Source: Skermanella mucosa (GTDB lineage Bacteria > Pseudomonadota > Alphaproteobacteria > Azospirillales > Azospirillaceae). Taken from it: a stretch of DNA of 64,000 nt. The notes under the pieces are model-generated. The model was given only the letters and a program-made list of their open reading frames with translations. It had not been told where the DNA came from and did not search any database. Within the stretch, counting starts at the first letter, position 1, and the number at the start of each line of letters is the position of its first letter. The translations under genes and the position numbers were made by a program. This document shows, piece by piece, positions 517-53,491 of the stretch. The DNA lies in contig NZ_CP086106.1 of NCBI RefSeq assembly GCF_016765655.2, positions 669,501 to 733,500 of the forward strand, read 5' to 3'.

Positions 517-2769
517 GTGCGTGCTTTTTCCTTCCGGGATAAGGGTTTGAAGCGTCCTGAACGGGGACTGCGGAACAGCTTGCGCGGCGGCCTGTTGGCC
601 CTGGGGATCGCGGCGGCGGCGGGCGTTCCCGCGGCATCGGCGCAGCAGGCCGGGGACGACCAGCCCGTGCTGCTGAATGCCGACGAACTCACCTATGACG
701 AGACCCTGGGCATCGTGACCGCCACGGGCGACGTGGAACTGGCCCAGGGCGACCGCCTGCTGCTGGCCGACCGGGTCTCCTTCAACGAGCGCACCCGGGT
801 GGTGACCGCCACCGGCAATATCCGCCTGCTGGAGCCGAGCGGCGACGTGATGTTCGCGGAATACGCCGAACTGACCGACGACCTGGCCCAGGGGTTCGTG
901 CAGCAGGTCCGCGCCCTGCTGACCGACAATTCCCGGCTCGCCGGGACCGAGGCGGAACGGACCGAAGGGGGCCGCTTCATGCGGATCAACCGGGCGGTCT
1001 ATTCCCCCTGCGACCTGTGCGTCGAGGACCCGACCCGGGCGCCGCTCTGGCAGCTCCGCGCCAACCGGGTGGTCCATGACAAGGAGGCGAAGGAGGTCGT
1101 CTATCGCGACGCCTGGCTCGAGATGTTCGGCATCCCCGTGCTGTACACGCCTTATTTCGAGCATCCCGACCCGACGGTCGACCGGAAGAGCGGCTTCCTG
1201 AGTCCCATCTTCGGCTATGGCGGCAATCTCGGGACTTTCGCGGCGGTGCCCTACTACTGGTCGATCGCCCCCGACATGGACGCGACGATCACCCCGATGT
1301 TCAGCACGGAGGACGGGGTCCAGCTGCGCGGCGAATGGCGCCAGCGGTTCGAGCGGGGACGCCTGTTCCTCGACGGCAGCATCGTGAACGCCGACCGGAC
1401 CACGACCTCGGGCGAGGTGAAGGAGGACCGCTGGCGCGGCCACCTGTTCGGCGAGGGCCTGTTCGACCTCGACGAGACCTGGCGGGCGGGCTTCAACCTC
1501 CAGCAGACGTCGGACCGATCCTACCTGCGGCGGTACCGGATCAGCGGCGAGGACATCCTGACCAGCCGCGCCTTCGTCGAAGGCTTCCAGGGCCGCAACT
1601 ACGCGGTCGCGAACGCCTATCGGTTCGACGACCTGCGCGAGATCTATGAGAACGAGCCCTATGTGATCCCGCTCGCCGAGGCCCAGATGCTCGGCGAACC
1701 CGACTCGCTGCTGGGCGGGCGCTGGTCGCTGGATTTCGGCCTGGTCGGATTGCAGCGCCCGGAAGGGCGCGACACCCAGCGCGCCTCGATCGAGGCGGGC
1801 TGGCAGCGCCAGTTCGTCGCGGACGCGGGGCTGATCACCACGGTCAGCGGCAGCCTGCGGGGCGACGCCTATTACGCCACCGACTATGTCAGGCCGGACG
1901 ATCCCACCGGGCGGGAGGACAGCACGACCGACTACCGCCTGTTTCCCCAGGGGCAGATCACCATGCGGTATCCGGTGGCGCGCCAGATCGGCACGGTCCA
2001 GCACGTGATCGAGCCGATCGTCTCGTTCACCACCTCGCCCAATGTCGACGACCAGGACGACATCCCGAACGAGGACAGCCAGGATATCGAGCTGACCGCC
2101 TACAACCTGTTCCGGCCCAACCGCTTCCCCGGCGTCGACCGGATCGACTCGGGCACCCGGGTGACCTACGGCGCCAAGACGGGCTTCTACGGTTTCGGCG
2201 GCGGCTTCTCGGAATTCTTCCTGGGACAGAGCTACCAGATCTCCCGGAACGACGAGGCGCTCGAAGCCTCGGGCCTGGGCGAGGATTATTCCGACATCGT
2301 CGGCAGCGTCCGCATCCAGCCCGGCCCCTACCTGGACCTGCAGTATAATTTCCAGCTCTCGGAGGAGGACCTGGAGGCTCAGGTCCAGCAGTTCCGCGTC
2401 AGCGCCGGCGTTCCCGTGCTGCGCGCCGGCGTCAACTATTACTACCGCGACCGGCCGACCAGCGGCGACACCGCCCCGCGCCGCGAATACTTGTCCGCGT
2501 CCCTCAGCTCGTCCTTCTCGCAGTACTGGTCCGCGGCCGTGGCGCAGAGCTACGACCTCCAGGCGACCGACGAGAGGCTGCGCAGCACCAGCGCCTCGCT
2601 GACCTACAGCGACGAGTGCTTCACCTTCCAGATCATCGGATCGCGGGACAATACCGTCCGCTCCGGCGAGGAAGGCGGCGACACGATCTATTTCCGCCTG
2701 GTGTTCCGCAACCTGGGCGAGGTCGAGGCCCCGCTGATCAGCTCCTCCTCGCAGGCGTCGTCCCAGTAA
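517..2769 (+). CDS. lptD: LPS-assembly protein LptD (outer-membrane beta-barrel)
   Basis: LptD is the outer-membrane beta-barrel that, with LptE, inserts lipopolysaccharide into the outer leaflet. The GTG at 517 is preceded by GAAGGG at a 7-nt spacing and yields 750 residues, normal for the family. A basic then hydrophobic signal peptide ends around A-S-A|Q-Q (residue 42). It is followed by an OstA/LptA-like beta-jellyroll domain (about residues 48-150, with L-N-A-D-E-L-T-Y-D and G-N-I-R-L-L-E) and then the large barrel domain, which contains F-G-I-P-V-L-Y-T-P-Y. Cysteines 165 and 168 form a C-x2-C at the domain junction and Cys701 lies near the C terminus, so a disulfide between N-domain and barrel is possible. 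A longer frame starts upstream at 367, but its leader lacks signal-peptide character. lptE is the convergent neighbour. Confidence 0.93.
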   Translation: MRAFSFRDKGLKRPERGLRNSLRGGLLALGIAAAAGVPAASAQQAGDDQPVLLNADELTYDETLGIVTATGDVELAQGDRLLLADRVSFNERTRVVTATGNIRLLEPSGDVMFAEYAELTDDLAQGFVQQVRALLTDNSRLAGTEAERTEGGRFMRINRAVYSPCDLCVEDPTRAPLWQLRANRVVHDKEAKEVVYRDAWLEMFGIPVLYTPYFEHPDPTVDRKSGFLSPIFGYGGNLGTFAAVPYYWSIAPDMDATITPMFSTEDGVQLRGEWRQRFERGRLFLDGSIVNADRTTTSGEVKEDRWRGHLFGEGLFDLDETWRAGFNLQQTSDRSYLRRYRISGEDILTSRAFVEGFQGRNYAVANAYRFDDLREIYENEPYVIPLAEAQMLGEPDSLLGGRWSLDFGLVGLQRPEGRDTQRASIEAGWQRQFVADAGLITTVSGSLRGDAYYATDYVRPDDPTGREDSTTDYRLFPQGQITMRYPVARQIGTVQHVIEPIVSFTTSPNVDDQDDIPNEDSQDIELTAYNLFRPNRFPGVDRIDSGTRVTYGAKTGFYGFGGGFSEFFLGQSYQISRNDEALEASGLGEDYSDIVGSVRIQPGPYLDLQYNFQLSEEDLEAQVQQFRVSAGVPVLRAGVNYYYRDRPTSGDTAPRREYLSASLSSSFSQYWSAAVAQSYDLQATDERLRSTSASLTYSDECFTFQIIGSRDNTVRSGEEGGDTIYFRLVFRNLGEVEAPLISSSSQASSQ

Positions 2770-2812: not shown

Positions 2813-2860
2813 GGAGGGTCGGCGTCCCGCCGACCGTGGTGCGCGGGACGCGCACCCTCC
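2813..2860 (-). repeat. 48-nt two-hairpin palindromic element, copy 1 (inverted)
   Basis: The layout is GGAG (2813-2816), an 8-bp hairpin with loop TCC (2817-2835), 2 nt, a 7-bp hairpin with loop GGGAC (2838-2856), then CTCC (2857-2860). Its reverse complement matches the copies at 44664 and 51379 except for the linker dinucleotide and one compensated base pair in one arm (T-A here, G-C there). It lies between the convergent lptD and lptE. It could be a REP-type element, a bidirectional terminator or an mRNA 3'-end stabiliser. Confidence 0.85.
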
Positions 2861-2949: not shown

Positions 2950-3474
2950 CTAGGACGCCGACGCCGTAACCGGCTCGCGGTTGAAGAACAGCGACAGCCG
3001 TCGGGTGATGTCTTCGCTCAGCTGCGCCACGCTCCGGTCGTAGGCGTCCTGCTCCCCGATCAGGGTCGCGTACTGGCTGCGCAGGATGTTGAAGTTGCTG
3101 ACGGACGTCGTGGTACCGGACAGGACGGCGGCACCCTGGGCGTTCCGCAGCGTATAGGCCGCCAGCACGTTCAGCTCGGCGCGGGTGGCGCTGTCGTCGA
3201 CCGCGATGCCCAGCTTGATCACCGTCGGGTTCAGAGCGATGTCGAGGGTGTACTCCGGCGAGGCCGGCCGGCCGTCGAGATAGAACCGGTCGATCAGGCT
3301 GTTGCGGAGCTGCTGCCCCAGGCGATTCGGGATATTGTTGACCTGGACGAGCGACAGTTGCTGCGCGGCCGGGGCGCTGGCGCCGTGGAGCGGCTGGTAT
3401 CCGCAGGCGGGCAGCAGCATCAGACAGAGCAAAGCGCCCCACCTTGAAAGCGGGTTTGTCTTGTTCGACGGCAT
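2950..3474 (-). CDS. lptE: LPS assembly lipoprotein LptE
   Basis: This 174-residue lipoprotein is the likely LptE, the plug that sits inside LptD and helps LPS insertion. The N terminus has a basic-hydrophobic leader and lipobox L21-P22-A23-C24, followed by G-Y-Q-P-L, the usual LptE opening. The remainder suits the compact LptE fold, with conserved-looking stretches such as L-G-Q-Q-L-R-N-S-L and a C-terminal helix with L-S-E-D-I-T-R-R-L. The ATG at 3474 follows an AGGTGG ribosome binding site; an upstream in-frame extension was rejected because it would bury the signal peptide. In many alphaproteobacteria lptE follows leuS (general knowledge); here it faces lptD. A short 67-nt gap separates it from the ligase-like gene upstream. 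Confidence 0.88.
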   Translation of the reverse strand: MPSNKTNPLSRWGALLCLMLLPACGYQPLHGASAPAAQQLSLVQVNNIPNRLGQQLRNSLIDRFYLDGRPASPEYTLDIALNPTVIKLGIAVDDSATRAELNVLAAYTLRNAQGAAVLSGTTTSVSNFNILRSQYATLIGEQDAYDRSVAQLSEDITRRLSLFFNREPVTASAS

Positions 3475-3541
3475 CGGCCACCTGGTGAATTCACGGGACT
3501 TCAGAGAACTGATGCGGCCGGCGCGATCAGCCCCGTCGAAG

Positions 3542-4762
3542 CTATCCAACTCGGTGCTGGCGCGCAAGCACGTGGATCGCCAGCATCGACAGGAACAGCG
3601 CGCCCAGCCACCAGACCTGCCAGATTCCATAGGCGACCGAGATCATGGCGAGCATGCCGGCGAAGGCGGCGAGCGCTACCGGCTGGCTGTCGCGCGGCAG
3701 GGTGCCGATGTCGCGCAGGATGGTCAGCCCGGCGGCGATGCCGAGGCAGACTCCGACGAATCCAAGCTCCAGCCAGACCTGAAGGATGGCATTGTGCGGG
3801 TGGAGCGGCAGCACCGGGAAGCTGTAGCCGCCGCGGTCGACGAACACGTTCTCCGCCAGGGAGCGGGACGAATCCAGTCCCCAGCCCAACAGCGGGCGCT
3901 CGAACACGAGGTTGGACGCGTAGTGCCAGATTTCGATCCGGTGGAGGAACGAGAAGGGCAGGTCGCCCCGGTCGATCAGATCCAGGCCGTAGAGATATTC
4001 CATGGCCGGAATGGTCGCGAAGAAGGTGACGACGACTCCGACGCCCAGCAGATGCCGGACCAAGGTCGGCGCCGCCATCGCGGCCGCCAGGGTCACCAGG
4101 CCGACCAGCAGCCCGGCCATCGCCGACTCGCTTTCCCCGCCGGTCACCAGGACGATCATGCCGACCGGAAGCAGGGCGGTCGCTGCCCGCTGGCGGCGCA
4201 GCCACAACACCTGGCAGACCGGCCAGCACAGGGCCGCCATCGCGACCATGTTCCGGTTGATCAACGATCCGTAGAATTCTGTGTCGGGCAGGGCGCCGCC
4301 GCGCATCAGCCGATAGACCGGCAGGCCGTGCAGCAGGTCCAGCATCAGCAGGATCACCGCCGCGGCGTAGGCCGTCACGAACAGGCCGGCGCGGCGCCCG
4401 TCCAGCAGCGGGGCCCGGGTCGCGGCGACCGCCAGGAACAGGGCGGGCACCAGCGCGTAGCCCAGTTCCCAGGCCTGCTTGAGGCTCTGCCCCGGCCGGA
4501 TGCTCCAGAGCGAGGTCAGGGCGCCGTAGGCCAGGAATCCGCCCAGGATCACCAGCCACCGGACCGGCGGGGCGGGCCAGCGGCCGGTGTCCAGGCGGTG
4601 GAGCACGACGCCGATGACCGAGCCGGCGATCATCAGCGGGGCCAGCCCGCGCGGCACTGTGACCGCGATCAGGGGGGCGAGCAGGAGGGTGATCAGGCAA
4701 GCGGTCGCGAAGCGCGCGGGCACGGCCGGCCCGCTCATGTCGCCAAACTCATTCTGGATCAC
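3542..4762 (-). CDS. O-antigen ligase family membrane protein (WaaL/Wzy type)
   Basis: This polytopic inner-membrane protein has about ten hydrophobic segments over 406 residues. A periplasmic-loop signature, H-R-I-E-I-W then P-L-L-G-W-G-L-D-S-S-R, is followed by L-H-P-H-N-A-I-L-Q with His321 and His323. This is typical of the Wzy_C/O-antigen ligase superfamily. Such proteins either ligate Und-PP-linked O-antigen to lipid A-core (WaaL) or polymerise repeat units (Wzy); sequence alone does not separate the two. The GTG at 4762 directly follows the stop of the upstream dehydratase gene, which implies translational coupling. An ATG at 4738 (start M-S-G-P-A) is an alternative. Confidence 0.85.
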   Translation of the reverse strand: MIQNEFGDMSGPAVPARFATACLITLLLAPLIAVTVPRGLAPLMIAGSVIGVVLHRLDTGRWPAPPVRWLVILGGFLAYGALTSLWSIRPGQSLKQAWELGYALVPALFLAVAATRAPLLDGRRAGLFVTAYAAAVILLMLDLLHGLPVYRLMRGGALPDTEFYGSLINRNMVAMAALCWPVCQVLWLRRQRAATALLPVGMIVLVTGGESESAMAGLLVGLVTLAAAMAAPTLVRHLLGVGVVVTFFATIPAMEYLYGLDLIDRGDLPFSFLHRIEIWHYASNLVFERPLLGWGLDSSRSLAENVFVDRGGYSFPVLPLHPHNAILQVWLELGFVGVCLGIAAGLTILRDIGTLPRDSQPVALAAFAGMLAMISVAYGIWQVWWLGALFLSMLAIHVLARQHRVG

Positions 4763-42628: not shown

Positions 42629-43714
42629 ATGAAGATCATCATCACCGGCGCCGCAGGCTTCATCGGTTCGGCCGTGGCGCGGCACCTCCTGCGGGACACG
42701 AACGCCTCCATCGTGTGCCTGGACAAGATGACCTACGCGGCCCATCCCGATACCCTGGCGCCGATCATCGACGGGGTGCGGGCGGTGTTCGAGCCGGTCG
42801 ACATCTGCGACCGGGCCGAGGTCGAACGGGTCTTCCGGGAGCACCGGCCCGACGCGGTCATGCACCTGGCCGCGGAGAGCCATGTGGACCGGTCGATCGA
42901 GATCCCCGGCGTCTTCATCGAGACCAACGTGGTCGGCACCTACGTGCTGCTGGAGGCGGCGCGCCGCCACTGGTCGGAGCTGACCGGGGAGCGGCGGGAC
43001 GGCTTCCGGTTCCACCATGTCTCGACCGACGAGGTCTACGGCTCGCTCGGGCCGACCGGCAAGTTCACCGAGGAGACGCCCTACGCGCCCAGCTCGCCCT
43101 ACTCGGCGAGCAAGGCCTCGGCCGACCACATCGTCAACGCCTGGCACCATACCCACGGGCTGCCGGTCGTCGTCAGCAACTGCTCGAACAACTACGGCCC
43201 CTACCAGTTTCCCGAGAAGCTGATCCCGCTGATGATCATCAACGCGCTGGAAGGCAAGCCGCTGCCGGTCTACGGCGCCGGGGCCAATGTCCGCGACTGG
43301 CTGTTCGTCGAGGACCACGCGGCCGCGCTGGTGCGGATCCTCACCGCGGGACGGGTGGGGCAGAAATACAATGTCGGCGGCGATGCCGAACGGAGCAACC
43401 TCGAGGTCGTGCACGCCATCTGCGACACGCTCGACGGGATGCTGCCGCGCGAGAGGCCCCGCCGCGACCTGATCACCCATGTGGCCGACCGGCCGGGCCA
43501 TGATCTCCGCTACGCGATCGACGCGACGAAGATCCGCCGCGAACTGGGCTGGGAACCGTCGGTGACCTTCGAGGCCGGCCTGCGCCGGACCATCGAATGG
43601 TACCTGACCAACCAGACCTGGTGGCAGCCGCTCCGCTCCGCCGTCTATGGCGGGCAGCGCCTCGGTCTCGGCGCCCTCGAAACCACCCGCAGGCTGGAGG
43701 TTGTCGCCTCGTGA
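42629..43714 (+). CDS. rfbB: dTDP-glucose 4,6-dehydratase
   Basis: This 361-residue SDR is the second enzyme of dTDP-L-rhamnose synthesis. It has [10 protein letters not shown] near the N terminus, [20 protein letters not shown] (with the catalytic Thr-Asp-Glu) and S-P-Y-S-A-S-K-A (Y-x3-K). [13 protein letters not shown] is diagnostic of RmlB. The product is dTDP-4-keto-6-deoxyglucose. The gene overlaps rfbD by 4 nt (GTGA). rfbA and rfbC are not in the window, so synthesis needs genes elsewhere or uses another branch. Confidence 0.96.
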
Positions 43715-44655
43715 CGGAAACCATGGAAAATACCGCATCCCCCCGGACGCTTCTGGTGTTCGGCCACCACGGGCAGGTCGCGACCGCGCTTCGCGAGGCG
43801 GTTCCGCCCGCCGGCTGGAGCATCCGGACGATCGGCCGCGACGGGGTCGACATCGTCGACCGCGCCGGCGTCGAGCGGGCCGTCCGGGAGAGCGGCGCCG
43901 CGCTGGTGATCAATGCCGCCGCCTATACCGCCGTCGACCGCGCCGAGAGCGAGCCCGACCAAGCCTTCGCCGTCAACCGCGACGGCGCCGCCCATGTCGC
44001 GCAGGCCTGCGCCCGGGCCGGCCTGCCGCTGATCCATCTCTCGACCGACTATGTCTTCGACGGCAAGGCGGCCGGCCACGCCTACCGCGAGACCGACCCG
44101 GTCAACCCGCTCAGCGCCTACGGCGTCAGCAAGGCCGCCGGCGAGCAGGCGGTGCGGGCGGCGGGCGCCCGGCACGCGATCGTCCGGACCTCCTGGGTAT
44201 ACGGCCCGCACGGCCACAATTTCGTCCGGACCATGCTGCGCATGGGCGACGAGCGGCCGGAGCTGGGCATCGTGGACGATCAGGTCGGCTGCCCGACCGC
44301 GGCGGCCGACATCGCCGACGCCCTGATCGCGATGGCGGCCCGCATCCTCTCCGAGCCGGCACCCGCGGAGGCGGGGCTGTTCGGCACCTTCCATTTCGCC
44401 GGGGCGGCCCGCATGACCTGGTACCGCTTCGCCCGCGAAGTCTTCTCGCTCGCCGCCCGCCACGGCCGCGGCACCCCGGGTCTGCGGCCGATCGCGTCGC
44501 TGGACTATCCCACCCCGGCGGTCCGGCCGGTCAATTCGGTGCTCGACTGCTCCCGGCTGGCGGCGGTCTACGGCATATCCAGCCCGCCGCTCCGCTCCAG
44601 CCTGGAAACCTGCATCGCCCGCCTGTGCGAGGCCCGGATGGAAGTGGCGGCCTGA
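43711..44655 (+). CDS. rfbD: dTDP-4-dehydrorhamnose reductase
   Basis: This 314-residue SDR reduces dTDP-4-keto-L-rhamnose to dTDP-L-rhamnose. [12 protein letters not shown] is the atypical RmlD nucleotide loop. [12 protein letters not shown] and [10 protein letters not shown] are diagnostic, and Y-G-V-S-K supplies the Y-x3-K. The GTG at 43711 follows GGAGG and overlaps the rfbB stop, which decides the start; an ATG at 43723 is the alternative. The 48-nt two-hairpin element begins 9 nt after the stop. Confidence 0.95.
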
Positions 44656-44663
44656 CCGGGTCC

Positions 44664-44711
44664 GGAGGGTGCGCGTCCCGCGCACCTTGGGCGGCGGGAC
44701 GCCGCCCCTCC
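44664..44711 (+). repeat. 48-nt two-hairpin palindromic element, copy 2
   Basis: The layout is GGAG, an 8-bp hairpin GGTGCGCG-TCC-CGCGCACC, linker TT, a 7-bp hairpin GGGCGGC-GGGAC-GCCGCCC, and CTCC. The ends pair to close a three-way junction. It lies between the convergent rfbD and GH17-GT2 genes and is nearly identical to the copy at 51379. The strand is assigned by matching the two plus copies. Confidence 0.88.
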
Positions 44712-44725
44712 GCGGAAGCTTCCGG

Positions 44726-47335
44726 TCAATCGCCCGCTTCGGCCTCGGCGACCTGCGGCTGGGCGTTGCGGCGGCGGCGCAGGCGAATCGCCGGCATGAC
44801 GTTGATCATGGAGGTCGCCAGGGCCGCCAGGTAGGGCAGCGACTGCACGACCAGCAGGCCGGCCCACAGGAAGGCGTCGCGGTTCTCGTGGCCGAACACC
44901 GCCACGATCGCCGCCGCGGCCAGCCACAGGCCGAGCATCAGCCCGATCTCCTCCCGCGCGTGCAGCAGCCCCTGGACGATCGCCGGCTGGTTCTCGCATT
45001 TGGGCGTCCGGACGAACGGCCGGCCGGAGGTGAACATCCCCTGCCAGATCGCCCGCCCGACCGTGTGGGTCAGCGCCATGCCCGCCACCGCGGCGCCGAT
45101 CTTCTGGGGCCAGGTGCAGCGGACCCGCGCCTCGTAGAGCCACAGGCTGCACACGATCTTGAAGCCGAACACCGACAGGGTCGGGACCATGAAGACGGTC
45201 GGCGGGAACTCGAAATATTTCGGGAAGGCCAGCAGCCCCAGCGACCAGAACACCGCGGCCGCGGCGAACGCCATGTGCGCCGCGTCGGCGAACCAGGGCA
45301 GCCAGCCGGTCAGGAAATGATAGCGCTGGGCCGTCGTCAGCGTGCGGCTGCCCGGCATCATCTCCCGCCAGTGGCGCTTCAGGATCTGCACCGCGCCGTA
45401 GGCCCACCGGAAGCGCTGGGTCTTGTAGGCGGCGAAGCTGTCCGGCACGAGCCCCCGGCCGAAGCTGTCCGGCATGTAGACCGCCTCGTACCCGGCCTCG
45501 AACAGGCGCAGGCCCAGCTCGGCGTCCTCGGTGATGCACCACTCGCCCCAGCGGCCGACCTCGACCAGCGCCGACTTGCGGATCAGCGTCATGGTGCCGT
45601 GCTGGATGATGGCGTTGCGCTCGTTGCGCTGGATCATGCCGATCTTGAAGAAGCCCTGGTACTCCCAGTTGCACATGGCCTGGAAGGTATCGTGGCCCCA
45701 GTCGCGATAGTCCTGCGGCGACTGGACGAACCCGACCTCTGCGCGCTGGAAATAGGGCACGGTGGAGGACAGCCAGGCGGGATCGACCTGATAGTCGCTG
45801 TCGATCACCGCGACGATCTCGGCGTCGGGCGCGGTGTGGTCCAGCCCGAAATTCAGGGCGCCGGCCTTGTAGCCCGGCCATTTCGGCAGGTGGAAGAAGC
45901 GGAAGCGGTCGCCGAGCTGGTGGCAGAAGGCCTCGACCGGCCGCCACACGGCCTCGTCCCGGGTATTGTTGTCGATGATCAGCACTTCGAAGTTCGGGTA
46001 GTCCAGCTTCGCCAGCGCGTTCAGCGTCTGCATGACCATGTGCGGCGGCTCGTTGTAGCAGGGCACATGGATCGACACCTTGGGCGCGTCCGGCCCCGGC
46101 GCCCCCCGGGCCGGCTCGAACCGGCGGCGCCAGCGGTCGGTCCAGACCACTTCGGTCAGCTCCAGCCCGTCGAACAGCATGACTGCCAGCAGCACGACCT
46201 GGCAGGCGAGCAGAACCGCCCAGGCGATCTCGGTGGTCACCGCCATGCCGAAGGACATCGCCGAGGCGCCGGTCCAGACCAGGATCGAGGCGCTCGCCTG
46301 GATCAATGCCGCGTAGAAGAACTGACCGCTCGGCTTCAGGTCCGACCGGCGGAACACGAACCACAAGGTCGGCAGGAACGCCATGGCGATCGCGACGGCG
46401 CACAGGACCGGCCAGTCCGGCACCTCCAGGATGCCGCCCGACAGCGGGAACTTGGGCTGGCGTATCGCGTCCCACATGCCCCAGTTGGCGCCCGCCGTGC
46501 CTTCCAGCGTCCGCTTCCACGGCTGGTCGAAGGCTTCCATCACGTAATAGTCCAGCCGCTCGCGCGCGGCGACATTGAAGAAGGTGCGCAGGAACTTGGC
46601 CTGGTTGACCAGCGACGCCTCGGCGCCGCGCCGCCACGGGCCGTCGCTGGGCCAGCCGATCTCGCCGATCAGGATGTGCTTGCCGGGGTATTTCGCCTTC
46701 AGCTCGTTGTAGCGGAACAGGGCGTACTCGACGGCGCCCTCGGCCGGCACTCCCTCCCAGTAGGGCAGGATATGGACGGTGATGTAGTCCACCGCCGCCA
46801 CCAGTTCGGGATGGTCCAGCCAGACGTGCCACGGCTCGGCGGTCGAGACCGGGACGTCCACCTGCCGCTTGACCCGCTCGATGTTGGCGATCTGCTGGGG
46901 CACCGTCACGTCGGTGCGCAGGATCGCCTCGTTGCCGACCAGCACGCGGCGGACATTGTCATGATGCCGGGTCACGCGCACGAGGCTGGCGATCTCCGCC
47001 TCGTCCACTTCCGGTATGCCCTGGATCCAGGCGCCCTGGGTGACGGTCAGGCCGTGGCGGCGGGCGGCCTGGGGGATCAGGTCGGCGCCGTTGAGCGAGC
47101 TGTAGCTGCGCACGCTCTTGACGTGGCCCGACAGCGCCGAGATGTCGCGCTCGATGTCGGCGGGGCCGGGATGGCGTCCCTCGATCGGGTTCTGGTCGAC
47201 CTGGTAGGGGCTGAGCGCCACGCCGTTGATCAGGCCGGCCCAGGAGCGCTCGTCCTCGGGCCGGTTGGATAGCGCCCAGGCGCCGAGATTGCCCAGCATG
47301 ACGAGCATGAGTACGAGGATCGCTGATGTGCGCAT
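44726..47335 (-). CDS. GH17-GT2 fusion, beta-glucan synthase type
   Basis: This 869-residue membrane protein has an N-terminal hydrophobic helix, then a GH17-like domain (about 35-300): V-R-S-Y-S-S-L-N-G, V-G-N-E-A-I, and I-G-E-I-G-W-P-S-D, with the two glutamates of that family. It continues with transmembrane segments (about 310-410) and a processive GT2 domain (about 425-690): V-P-C-Y-N-E-P-P, D-S-D-Y-Q, I-T-E-D-A-E-L-G, and Q-R-F-R-W-A-Y-G (the Q-x2-R-W motif). More membrane helices follow. NdvB/NdvC of Bradyrhizobium combine such activities to make beta-1,3/1,6-glucans, so this is probably a periplasmic glucan or exopolysaccharide synthase. It stands alone as a transcription unit. Confidence 0.9.
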   Translation of the reverse strand: MRTSAILVLMLVMLGNLGAWALSNRPEDERSWAGLINGVALSPYQVDQNPIEGRHPGPADIERDISALSGHVKSVRSYSSLNGADLIPQAARRHGLTVTQGAWIQGIPEVDEAEIASLVRVTRHHDNVRRVLVGNEAILRTDVTVPQQIANIERVKRQVDVPVSTAEPWHVWLDHPELVAAVDYITVHILPYWEGVPAEGAVEYALFRYNELKAKYPGKHILIGEIGWPSDGPWRRGAEASLVNQAKFLRTFFNVAARERLDYYVMEAFDQPWKRTLEGTAGANWGMWDAIRQPKFPLSGGILEVPDWPVLCAVAIAMAFLPTLWFVFRRSDLKPSGQFFYAALIQASASILVWTGASAMSFGMAVTTEIAWAVLLACQVVLLAVMLFDGLELTEVVWTDRWRRRFEPARGAPGPDAPKVSIHVPCYNEPPHMVMQTLNALAKLDYPNFEVLIIDNNTRDEAVWRPVEAFCHQLGDRFRFFHLPKWPGYKAGALNFGLDHTAPDAEIVAVIDSDYQVDPAWLSSTVPYFQRAEVGFVQSPQDYRDWGHDTFQAMCNWEYQGFFKIGMIQRNERNAIIQHGTMTLIRKSALVEVGRWGEWCITEDAELGLRLFEAGYEAVYMPDSFGRGLVPDSFAAYKTQRFRWAYGAVQILKRHWREMMPGSRTLTTAQRYHFLTGWLPWFADAAHMAFAAAAVFWSLGLLAFPKYFEFPPTVFMVPTLSVFGFKIVCSLWLYEARVRCTWPQKIGAAVAGMALTHTVGRAIWQGMFTSGRPFVRTPKCENQPAIVQGLLHAREEIGLMLGLWLAAAAIVAVFGHENRDAFLWAGLLVVQSLPYLAALATSMINVMPAIRLRRRRNAQPQVAEAEAGD

Positions 47336-51378: not shown

Positions 51379-51426
51379 GGAGGGTGCGCGTTCCGCGCAC
51401 CTTGGGCGGCGGGACGCCGCCCCTCC
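51379..51426 (+). repeat. 48-nt two-hairpin palindromic element, copy 3
   Basis: Same layout as the copy at 44664, with one change: the first loop is TTC instead of TCC. It lies 12 nt after the stop of the ATP-grasp gene and 19 nt before the end of the convergent polyferredoxin gene. Confidence 0.88.
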
Positions 51427-51445: not shown

Positions 51446-53491
51446 TTACGCCTTGTAGTCCTCCGTCGTGATGGTCGGCGGGCGCTCCGGCCCGGCATAG
51501 GGGTCGAGGGCCGTTTCCGACTGGGCGATCACGCGGCAGTCGGCGCACATGTAGATGCGGTCGATCAGCGCCTTGTTGCCGAACATCCAGTGCTTGCCGG
51601 CCAGCTTCTCGGCGATCCGGTCGATCGACGCCTTGGTGCCGAACGCGGTGCCGCAGCGGATGCAGTGGCAGGGCTCCTCCTGCTTCACCATCACGGGGGA
51701 CCGGGCGGCGTCGGTGAAGTCGAGTCGCGGGTTCAGACGGATCACCTTCTCGGGGCAGGTGTTCTGGCACAGCCCGCACTGGACGCAGGCATCCTCGGTG
51801 AAGCTCAGCATCGGCCGGTCCGCGTTGTCCGACAGGGCGCCGGTCGGGCAGGCGGAGACGCAGGCGAGGCAGAGCGTGCAGCCCTCCACGTCGATGTCGA
51901 GCGTGCCGAACGGCGCCCCCGCCGCCAGTGGCAGGACCGGCACCGGTTCCGGGGCGACGCCGTGGAGCTTGCGCAGCGCCAGCCGCGACAGGCCCTTCTT
52001 GTCGCCCAGCGCCAGGAAATTCTCCGGCTCCGCCCCCGGCCGCCGCGGCATGCCGTACAGCTCGCCGGTCAGCAGGTCGGGGTCGTCGGCCTCGATCAGC
52101 CCGACCCGGCCGGAGCCGAAGCCCAGGCCGGACAGCACCGTCTCCGCCAAGCCCAGGGTGCGGGCGAGCGGCAGCAGGTCCTCGCGCGGGCGGGCGGTGA
52201 CCAGCACCCGCAACTCGGCGGCACCATAGGCGAAGCTTGCCGCCAGCGCCTCGATGCCGAGCTGGGTGACCGAATTGACCGCGAAGGGGATCACCCGAGC
52301 CGGCAGGCCGGCGCCGAAGCGGGCCGCGAGGTCGATCAGCGGGTCGCCGTGGTCGGCGTCATGGACCAGCACGACCGCGTCCCGTCCGCCCGCGCGGTGA
52401 TATGTCATCAGCAGGGTGCGCAGCCGTTCCAGCAGCGATTCCGGCGCGGGCAGGGCATATGTGGCGGCCCCGGTCGGGCAGACCGCCGCGCAGGAGCCGC
52501 AGCCCGCGCAGACGAACGGGTCGATCGCGACATGCTCGCCGGCCGATGCGATGGCCCCGGTCGGGCAGACCTCCAGGCAGCGGGTGCAGCCGGTCTTGCG
52601 CGAGCGGGAGTGGGCGCACAGCTCCGCCCGGTAGTCCACGTAGCGCGGCTTGTCGAACTCGCCCACCAGGTCGGCGGCCTTGAAAACCGCCTTCTGCACC
52701 TCCGCCGGGCTGCCGGGGTCGGGCCTCAGGTAGCCGTCCCTCTTGCCGTGGGCCGGGAACAGCGGCGTGCCGCCGGTCAGGTCGATGATGATGTCGCAGG
52801 TGGACTTGGCGCCCCGCCGCGCCGGGCCGAACGCCAGCGCCTGACGCGACGAGGGCAGCGGGACGGCGTAGTCGTCCACCTCGATCTCGAACGCGCCGAG
52901 ATGGCCGCTCGCCCGCGTGATGGTGCCCTTCAGGATCGGGAACTCCGCGGTGCGCGGCGGGATCACGGCGCCGGGCCGGGTCAGCATCACCGTGATGTCC
53001 AGCCGGTCCGACAGCTGCCGGGCGACCTCGATCGCCAACTCGTCCCGGCCATAGATCAGGGCCACGCCTTCCGACTTCAGCTCGACCGATCCGGCGGGCG
53101 GCAGGTCGAGCGCCGCCTCGGCGATCAGCGCCGCGATCTTCGGGTGGGCGTCGGCAGCCTCGTCCGACCAGCCGGCGCGCTCGCGGATATTGAAGAACCC
53201 GACCCGCGCGTCGGGATGGGTATCCTCGCGCTGCTCGTCGAACAGGGGCGCCTCCTGGGTGCAGGCGACCAGCACCGGGCCGGACGCCTCGCCCAGGGCC
53301 GCGGTGAAGCGGTCCAGCTCGCCGCGGCACAGCTGGGTGGCGACAAGGGCCGTCGCCTCGGGGCCGGCGCCGCAGGCTTTCGCCAGTTTCCCGCCGTCCA
53401 GGGGCATCGTGCCCTCGCAATTGCACACGAGGACGGTGCGGCCGTTTACGTCCATCGGGCCGGTCACGCGATCATAGGAGAGAGGTTTCAT
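51446..53491 (-). CDS. Polyferredoxin-like 4Fe-4S protein of a formate dehydrogenase cluster
   Basis: This 681-residue protein carries four ferredoxin-type cysteine clusters in two pairs. The first pair is C-T-R-C-L-E-V-C-P-T-G and C-A-G-C-G-S-C-A-A-V-C-P (about residues 300-345). The second is C-T-L-C-L-A-C-V-S-A-C-P and C-V-Q-C-G-L-C-Q-N-T-C-P (about 545-590). Its C terminus adds C-H-C-I-R-C and M-C-A-D-C. It lacks a signal peptide and a recognisable catalytic domain, so it probably serves electron transfer or metal-cluster supply in the cytoplasm. Genes like it occur beside the DUF3305/3306-type formate dehydrogenase biogenesis genes. The ATG at 53491 follows AGGA and is divergent from those genes. 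Confidence 0.82.
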   Translation of the reverse strand: MKPLSYDRVTGPMDVNGRTVLVCNCEGTMPLDGGKLAKACGAGPEATALVATQLCRGELDRFTAALGEASGPVLVACTQEAPLFDEQREDTHPDARVGFFNIRERAGWSDEAADAHPKIAALIAEAALDLPPAGSVELKSEGVALIYGRDELAIEVARQLSDRLDITVMLTRPGAVIPPRTAEFPILKGTITRASGHLGAFEIEVDDYAVPLPSSRQALAFGPARRGAKSTCDIIIDLTGGTPLFPAHGKRDGYLRPDPGSPAEVQKAVFKAADLVGEFDKPRYVDYRAELCAHSRSRKTGCTRCLEVCPTGAIASAGEHVAIDPFVCAGCGSCAAVCPTGAATYALPAPESLLERLRTLLMTYHRAGGRDAVVLVHDADHGDPLIDLAARFGAGLPARVIPFAVNSVTQLGIEALAASFAYGAAELRVLVTARPREDLLPLARTLGLAETVLSGLGFGSGRVGLIEADDPDLLTGELYGMPRRPGAEPENFLALGDKKGLSRLALRKLHGVAPEPVPVLPLAAGAPFGTLDIDVEGCTLCLACVSACPTGALSDNADRPMLSFTEDACVQCGLCQNTCPEKVIRLNPRLDFTDAARSPVMVKQEEPCHCIRCGTAFGTKASIDRIAEKLAGKHWMFGNKALIDRIYMCADCRVIAQSETALDPYAGPERPPTITTEDYKA

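Follow-up and report, generated by a model that had tools for sequence, protein, structure and literature searches.

The locus raises the question of what kind of element the 48-nt sequence is that occurs three times in the window, and how its copies came to lie where they do. The window is the 64,000-nt stretch of Skermanella mucosa DNA analysed here, C1:669501-733500 of a 7.84-Mb genome in five contigs (G000). One stretch of contig C3 had its best match in a Skermanella rosea plasmid, at 90% over 65% of the query. An initial sequence-only reading had proposed a transcription terminator, an mRNA 3′-end stabiliser or a mobile REP-like element.

Architecture of the 48-nt element

Inspection of the window confirmed three 48-nt copies, whereas 100 shuffles of the window gave an expectation of 0.00 for this 48-mer with up to three mismatches. 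The copies and their flanking genes are as follows.

44664–44711, plus strand: consensus copy of the GGAG-tagged REP doublet (48 nt), lying between convergent genes
44664–44686, plus strand: REP unit 1, GGAG followed by GGTGCGCG-TCC-CGCGCACC
44687–44688: 2-nt linker between the REP units
44689–44711, minus strand: REP unit 2, inverted, GGAG followed by GGGCGGCG-TCC-CGCCGCCC
43711–44655 (plus) and 44726–47335 (minus): flanks of the 44664 copy, an rmlD-like gene and a glycosyltransferase gene
51379–51426, plus strand: 48-nt copy with a single changed loop base (TTC)
Up to 51366 (plus) and 51446–53491 (minus): flanks of the 51379 copy, the end of a glutathionylspermidine-synthase-like gene and an Fe-S protein gene
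2813–2860, minus strand: 48-nt copy with second arm GGTCGGCG/CGCCGACC, a compensatory change from G-C to T-A
580–2769 (plus) and 2950–3630 (minus): flanks of the 2813 copy, lptD and an lptE-like gene

As had been reported, the 44664 and 51379 copies differ at one base, and the inverted 2813 copy differs from that at 44664 at four positions, namely the two linker bases and the G-C to T-A exchange in one arm. The proposed layout of GGAG, hairpin, 2 nt, hairpin and CTCC was also correct. Instead of stems of 8 and 7 bp, both hairpins can be taken to have an 8-bp stem closed by a loop of 3 nt (TCC or GGA). Read from the outside in, each half consists of GGAG, an 8-bp stem of the form GG....CG and the loop TCC, which is TTC in one unit of the 51379 copy. 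The element is thus composed of two inverted units, 2 nt apart and with their tags facing outward, and is a head-to-head, REPIN-like REP doublet. It is a heterodimer, with the stem GGTGCGCG in one unit and GGGCGGCG in the other (GGTCGGCG in the minus-strand copy). Inverted units with outward tags, which characterize REPINs, were seen in both arms, and replication as one unit is a candidate property of the doublet. An Rfam scan of the window gave no match above the gathering score.

An imperfect GTAG-type hairpin (GTAGGTTGGGCC-GTG-GCCGAAC) was observed at 2899–2920, about 38 nt past the 2813–2860 copy, and the orthologous gap in a second genome of the genus (G002) holds more GTAG-type hairpin sequence.

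Copies in the Skermanella genome lie behind genes

When the genome was searched with a pattern allowing up to three mismatches, 57 hits at 30 places were obtained, the near-palindrome being counted on both strands. A covariance model built from 19 sequences (17 distinct) scored at least 67 bits at 33 places, and relaxing the threshold to E = 1.7e-5 brought the number to 41. These 33 strong copies were confined to three of the five contigs (C1, C3 and C4) and form many dispersed extragenic palindromes, as is expected of REPs. None of them lay inside a predicted gene, and the 4 of 50 examined places that did were all weak; genes were called with our own codon-usage script rather than taken from an annotation.

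By gene context, 15 of the 33 strong copies were convergent, 16 co-directional and 2 divergent, as compared with 654, 2300 and 2046 of 5000 random 48-nt intergenic placements, a baseline drawn from the window and 40 further stretches, many of which had been chosen because a copy was present or expected in them. Convergence was therefore enriched (15/33 versus 13%; binomial p = 5.6e-6), and 19 of all 41 places were convergent. The claim that every copy sits between convergent genes thus held for the three in the window but not genome-wide, while the enrichment at convergent ends that had been suggested as a check was found, though it is not universal. Nearness to gene 3′ ends was more pronounced, with 24 of 33 strong copies at most 50 nt away as compared with 789 of 5000 random placements (16%; binomial p = 5.0e-13), and the median distance to the nearest 3′ end was 12 nt.

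The copies at C1:1744950 (L095) and C1:1749985 (L011), 5 kb apart, have short flank pieces in common, and the flanks at L009, L094 and L095 are alike across about 470–620 nt. This likeness indicates that some copies may have been duplicated together with a neighbouring gene family.

Such tight placement behind genes, together with the enrichment between convergent ones, would be expected of a functional RNA or terminator of its own kind (a bidirectional terminator or an mRNA 3′-end stabiliser) that had been spread and maintained by selection instead of by a REP transposase. However, we found a mean of 1.8 T in the 10 nt after the element end, and at least four T in the first 6 nt at 2 of 82 ends. 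In view of this missing T-tract a plain intrinsic terminator is unlikely, and the terminator originally proposed was not supported in that form. A separate T-tailed hairpin was present in 2 of the 33 gaps of strong copies by a strict scan; outside that scan, a TTTTT-tailed hairpin was seen near a weaker copy (L090). Moreover, ordinary REPs are reported to have the same 3′-end placement (PMC3733652). A role as mRNA 3′-end stabiliser is possible.

Folding and covariation of the doublet

Complementary loops and an alternative long hairpin had also been described, and both are real in the copies because the element consists of two inverted units. Folding with RNA parameters gave the long hairpin for copies with TCC/GGA loops and a three-way junction for the 51379 copy, and DNA parameters gave the three-way junction in both copies tried. 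In single-stranded form the element can fold into two 8-bp hairpins, with outer tags able to pair as GGAG/CTCC.

To compare the two folds we used 60 distinct cores with up to seven differences from the consensus. The results revealed that 93.5% of cells were paired in the three-way junction, exceeding all 1000 shuffles (mean 91.6%), and that 17 cells were doubly changed, as against a shuffle mean of 3.2 and a maximum of 10. Five pairs carried a double change, and 45 of 1000 shuffles attained that number. For the long hairpin there were 19 doubly changed cells (reached by 4 of 1000 shuffles), but it paired in only 68.5% of cells and was rejected as the selected form. Within the window's genome alone covariation was weak, with 28 of 500 shuffles reaching the score. 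The inference of selection for structure, which had been drawn from the one compensatory exchange in the window, is thus supported by the wider set, although hairpin-templated mutation could mimic or contribute to such changes. The compensatory changes are also in keeping with a functional RNA.

Conservation and loss at orthologous sites

We then examined the distribution of the element among relatives. A match at E ≤0.1 was found in 13 of 59 genomes, and matches below 1e-5 only in G000, two other genomes of the genus (G001 and G002) and one of the same family (G013). Two further genomes of the genus, G003 and G004, gave two weak matches each; in G003, a sister species, two loci (L034 and L046) carry diverged doublets, with one and the same unit bearing GTAG at one locus and GGAG at the second. 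In a class-wide sample, scoring the best 15 candidates per genome, 2 of 385 genomes matched at E ≤1e-5, both of the same genus. The many-genome searches score only the best candidates (15 per genome for the element, 8 for transposase homologues), so diverged families are missed.

This patchiness bears on the idea that selection maintains the element as a site on the DNA bound by a protein, such as a nucleoid protein or gyrase. The sequence is conserved besides the structure, loops included, as such a site would require, but two weak matches in each of two genomes of the same genus and the 2 of 385 class genomes (best 15 candidates each) make this explanation very improbable.

Stretches of G001 and G002 picked around known or expected copies contained 34 copies, of which 30 had flanks matching those of a G000 copy. 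Substitution rates were determined from 24 of these 34, after four without a G000 flank match, five with a degenerate G000 partner and one ambiguous case had been dropped. The cores of the 24 orthologous pairs showed 47 substitutions in 1103 positions, as compared with 11 in 48 for the linker, 385 in 2073 (19%) for intergenic flanks and 111 in 1544 for coding flanks. When the five pairs with a degenerate partner were included, the core count rose to 71 in 1293 with 43 gapped positions, so that orthologous cores differ by 4–6% depending on this choice. Because core changes are rarer than those in the flanks, with the linker as an internal control, the arms appear to be conserved in place; the pairs were chosen by detectable copies, which favours conservation in these rates, and gene conversion could also have kept the arms alike. 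Conservation in place is a further point that a functional RNA would explain.

Gain, loss and decay were likewise seen. The C1:1061048 copy of G000 is missing from an otherwise alignable gap in both G001 and G002, a clean empty site. It is the only clean presence/absence site, no clear target duplication was seen there, and either a gain or a loss could account for it. Less cleanly, the G002 gap that corresponds to C1:631429 showed no copy, and with the covariance model none was detected in the counterparts of C1:1551813 (both relatives) or C1:566604 (G002), whose gaps differ in length by hundreds of bases. Element decay was seen in the five degenerate pairs. Furthermore, G000 has a 27-nt double foot (one hairpin with a tag at each end) where G002 has the complete 48-mer. 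One of the two hairpins has been lost, and the product is the form suggested in PMC6006769, which proposes that a double foot arises by deletion inside an inverted dimer.

The same core outside the genus

A pattern scan of genome contigs returned 14 stretches, from an Azospirillaceae MAG, Roseiarcus fermentans, a Roseiarcus MAG, and Rhizobiales and Methylobacteriaceae MAGs. Several Roseiarcus copies have a 46-nt core identical to that of the Skermanella element, some in tandem arrays. At E ≤0.001, with both strands counted, 82 matches were found in R. fermentans (G059), 104 in the Roseiarcus MAG (G060), 71 in G061 and 18 in G062. Roseiarcus belongs to the Hyphomicrobiales and Skermanella to the Rhodospirillales, and a core common to two alphaproteobacterial orders bears on whether such doublets move between hosts. 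That an identical core recurs in a distant order, where some copies also form tandem arrays, argues against a functional RNA spread by selection. Viral contigs gave no match to the one element pattern searched.

With the second tag base left open, GGAG was found at 118 of 120 sites in 9 of 10 genomes, two palindromic 27-mers being counted twice; the exceptions were one GTAG (G003) and one GCAG (G059).

A REP-associated transposase beside GGAG hairpins

Two Y1-transposase genes were found in the Roseiarcus MAG. The product of one, P0001, matches the NCBIfam family NF047646, REP-associated tyrosine transposase (RAYT), with 95.9 bits (cut-off 80), and contains the motifs NHVH and YIEGNP. Three elements or remnants start within 230 nt upstream of the gene, which itself starts 12 nt after the third, counted from the chosen ATG. 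In one element-dense MAG such proximity could arise by chance. In the class-wide sample, homologues of P0001 were found at five loci in 3 of 385 genomes (best eight candidates per genome; 46–52% identity). GGAG-tagged hairpins lay within about 115 nt of the match at three of the five (L233, L234 and L235), on both sides in two, mostly with one base between tag and stem. L232 had GGAC hairpins instead of GGAG, and a hairpin scan of L236 detected no tagged hairpin. All tagged hairpins that the scan found at L232–L235 were within about 150 nt of the match.

A RAYT of this clade was not found in the four genomes with the strongest matches (G000, G001, G002 and G013), where the best hit was partial (E 3.6e-14, 28–39% identity), nor in three other element-bearing genomes, R. 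fermentans (38%), G061 (no match) and G062 (33%). The suggested search for a nearby RAYT gene was thus borne out in other genomes, where GGAG hairpins stand beside RAYTs, but not in the window's own, where the matching clade was not found. A REPtron would pair a RAYT gene with the same repeats beside it; copies were seen upstream of one RAYT in the Roseiarcus MAG and related GGAG hairpins at three of five homologous loci, and no such pairing was found in the window's genome.

Copies beside a RAYT gene further weaken the case for a functional RNA without a transposase, which we consider unlikely overall. They also bear on a MITE or an isolated end derived from an ordinary IS or another DNA transposon: a short inverted-repeat element at many sites with no internal gene fits this description, but the only transposase gene observed next to copies of this kind encodes a RAYT and target duplication was not seen at the one empty site, and we give the explanation scarcely any weight.

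Of the three original proposals, it is the mobile REP-like element that was sustained: strong copies are spread over three of the five contigs, one site is occupied in G000 and empty in G001 and G002, the core recurs in another order, and elsewhere RAYT genes have GGAG hairpins beside them. We therefore consider it likely that the Skermanella elements are non-autonomous REP doublets that were once moved by a GGAG-reading RAYT, are now mostly fixed and survive behind genes. An enzyme of the P0001 clade would once have moved them, with GGAG as guide and putative site of cleavage, and the insertions would have survived mainly behind genes. Given that a matching RAYT was not found in Skermanella, where the clade may be absent or lost, the doublets probably form an old population in which most copies no longer move.

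The conservation of the arms in place suggests that transcribed hairpins may be selected. The transcribed hairpin would act, for example, as a 3′-end structure that restrains exonuclease or curbs read-through transcription coming from a convergent gene next to it. More tentatively, and with somewhat less than even confidence, we propose that P0001-like RAYTs form a clade whose guide is GGAG (GGAC in one member), a code shifted from GTAG, and that the Skermanella doublets have outlived their transposase and been kept as transcribed 3′-end structures, that is, as domesticated REPINs without a RAYT. Conserved doublets without a detectable matching RAYT offer a way to address the usefulness of the repeats in their own right. 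REP recognition reportedly involves the GTAG tag, and a natural RAYT clade with GGAG or GGAC hairpins would directly test how a tag is read and changed.

Relation to known REP systems

Tagged REPs, head-to-head dimers (in some cases 1–5 bp apart), heterodimers and 3′-end placement are described in PMC3733652, and REPINs are defined in PMC3116915. The element shares with the GTAG REPs and REPINs of these papers a tag, a short stem, a short loop, inverted units with outward tags, the occurrence of heterodimers and location at gene 3′ ends; in many genomes such repeats are linked to RAYTs. It differs in its tag, as GGAG is not among the variants listed in PMC3733652 (GYAG, GYRG, GTRG, GTMG and GTGG), in its 2-nt linker, which in known REP dimers is usually 20–100 nt although 1–5 bp exists (PMC3733652), and in that no matching RAYT was found in the Skermanella host. 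GTAG or GTGG at the hairpin foot, the mark of a canonical REP, is lacking; the element appears to work like a REP without being a canonical GTAG REP. CGTC REPs, common in Alphaproteobacteria, are mostly head-to-head dimers, as here, but have a terminal CGTC tag and stems almost always starting with A/T pairs (PMC3733652), whereas our element has CGTC at its loop and a stem opening with GG, which sets it apart from that class.

The automatic search of the paper on TnpA_REP subclasses required GTAG or GTGG (PMC6006769). No instance of the string GGAG was found in the main texts of PMC2817692, PMC8266576 and PMC6006769, and a literature search for GGAG together with GTAG, REP or RAYT gave no match, a weak result as matching was by whole word. 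The exact arm strings matched only in an unrelated virus paper. Relative to the REP literature examined, so far as its accessible text goes, the GGAG tag is new, while the doublet architecture was already known.

Other RAYT-related genes and GTAG hairpins

RAYT-related genes in G000 comprised an IS200-type gene, a gene beside GGGGTCAGAG repeats and a weak match. The second of these, on C3 (L065), was rejected as driver of the doublets, as it adjoins the GGGGTCAGAG repeats and inspection of the 3.3-kb locus revealed no GGAG doublet. At 1340–1410 of L065 this RAYT-like gene lies by repeated ATGGGGTCAGAGTC, resembling the TIR-flanked transposases described in PMC3733652.

In R. fermentans, a RAYT (L149/L193) has GGCGGGGTC-type hairpins tagged GTAG nearby; no GGAG doublet was seen at this locus, although the genome has many. 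The RAYTs at L200 and L206 (G001 and G002) were likewise rejected as drivers, as they carry GTAG hairpins. They are of another type, with a DHLH motif, and lie amid GTAG-GTTGCGCC-CAT-GGCGCAAC hairpins, so that the genus also has a REP system of the GTAG type. These hairpins differ from the 48-nt element in the GTAG tag, a longer spacer and the type of RAYT, but share with it a 4-nt tag, an 8-bp stem, a 3-nt loop and outward-facing tags.
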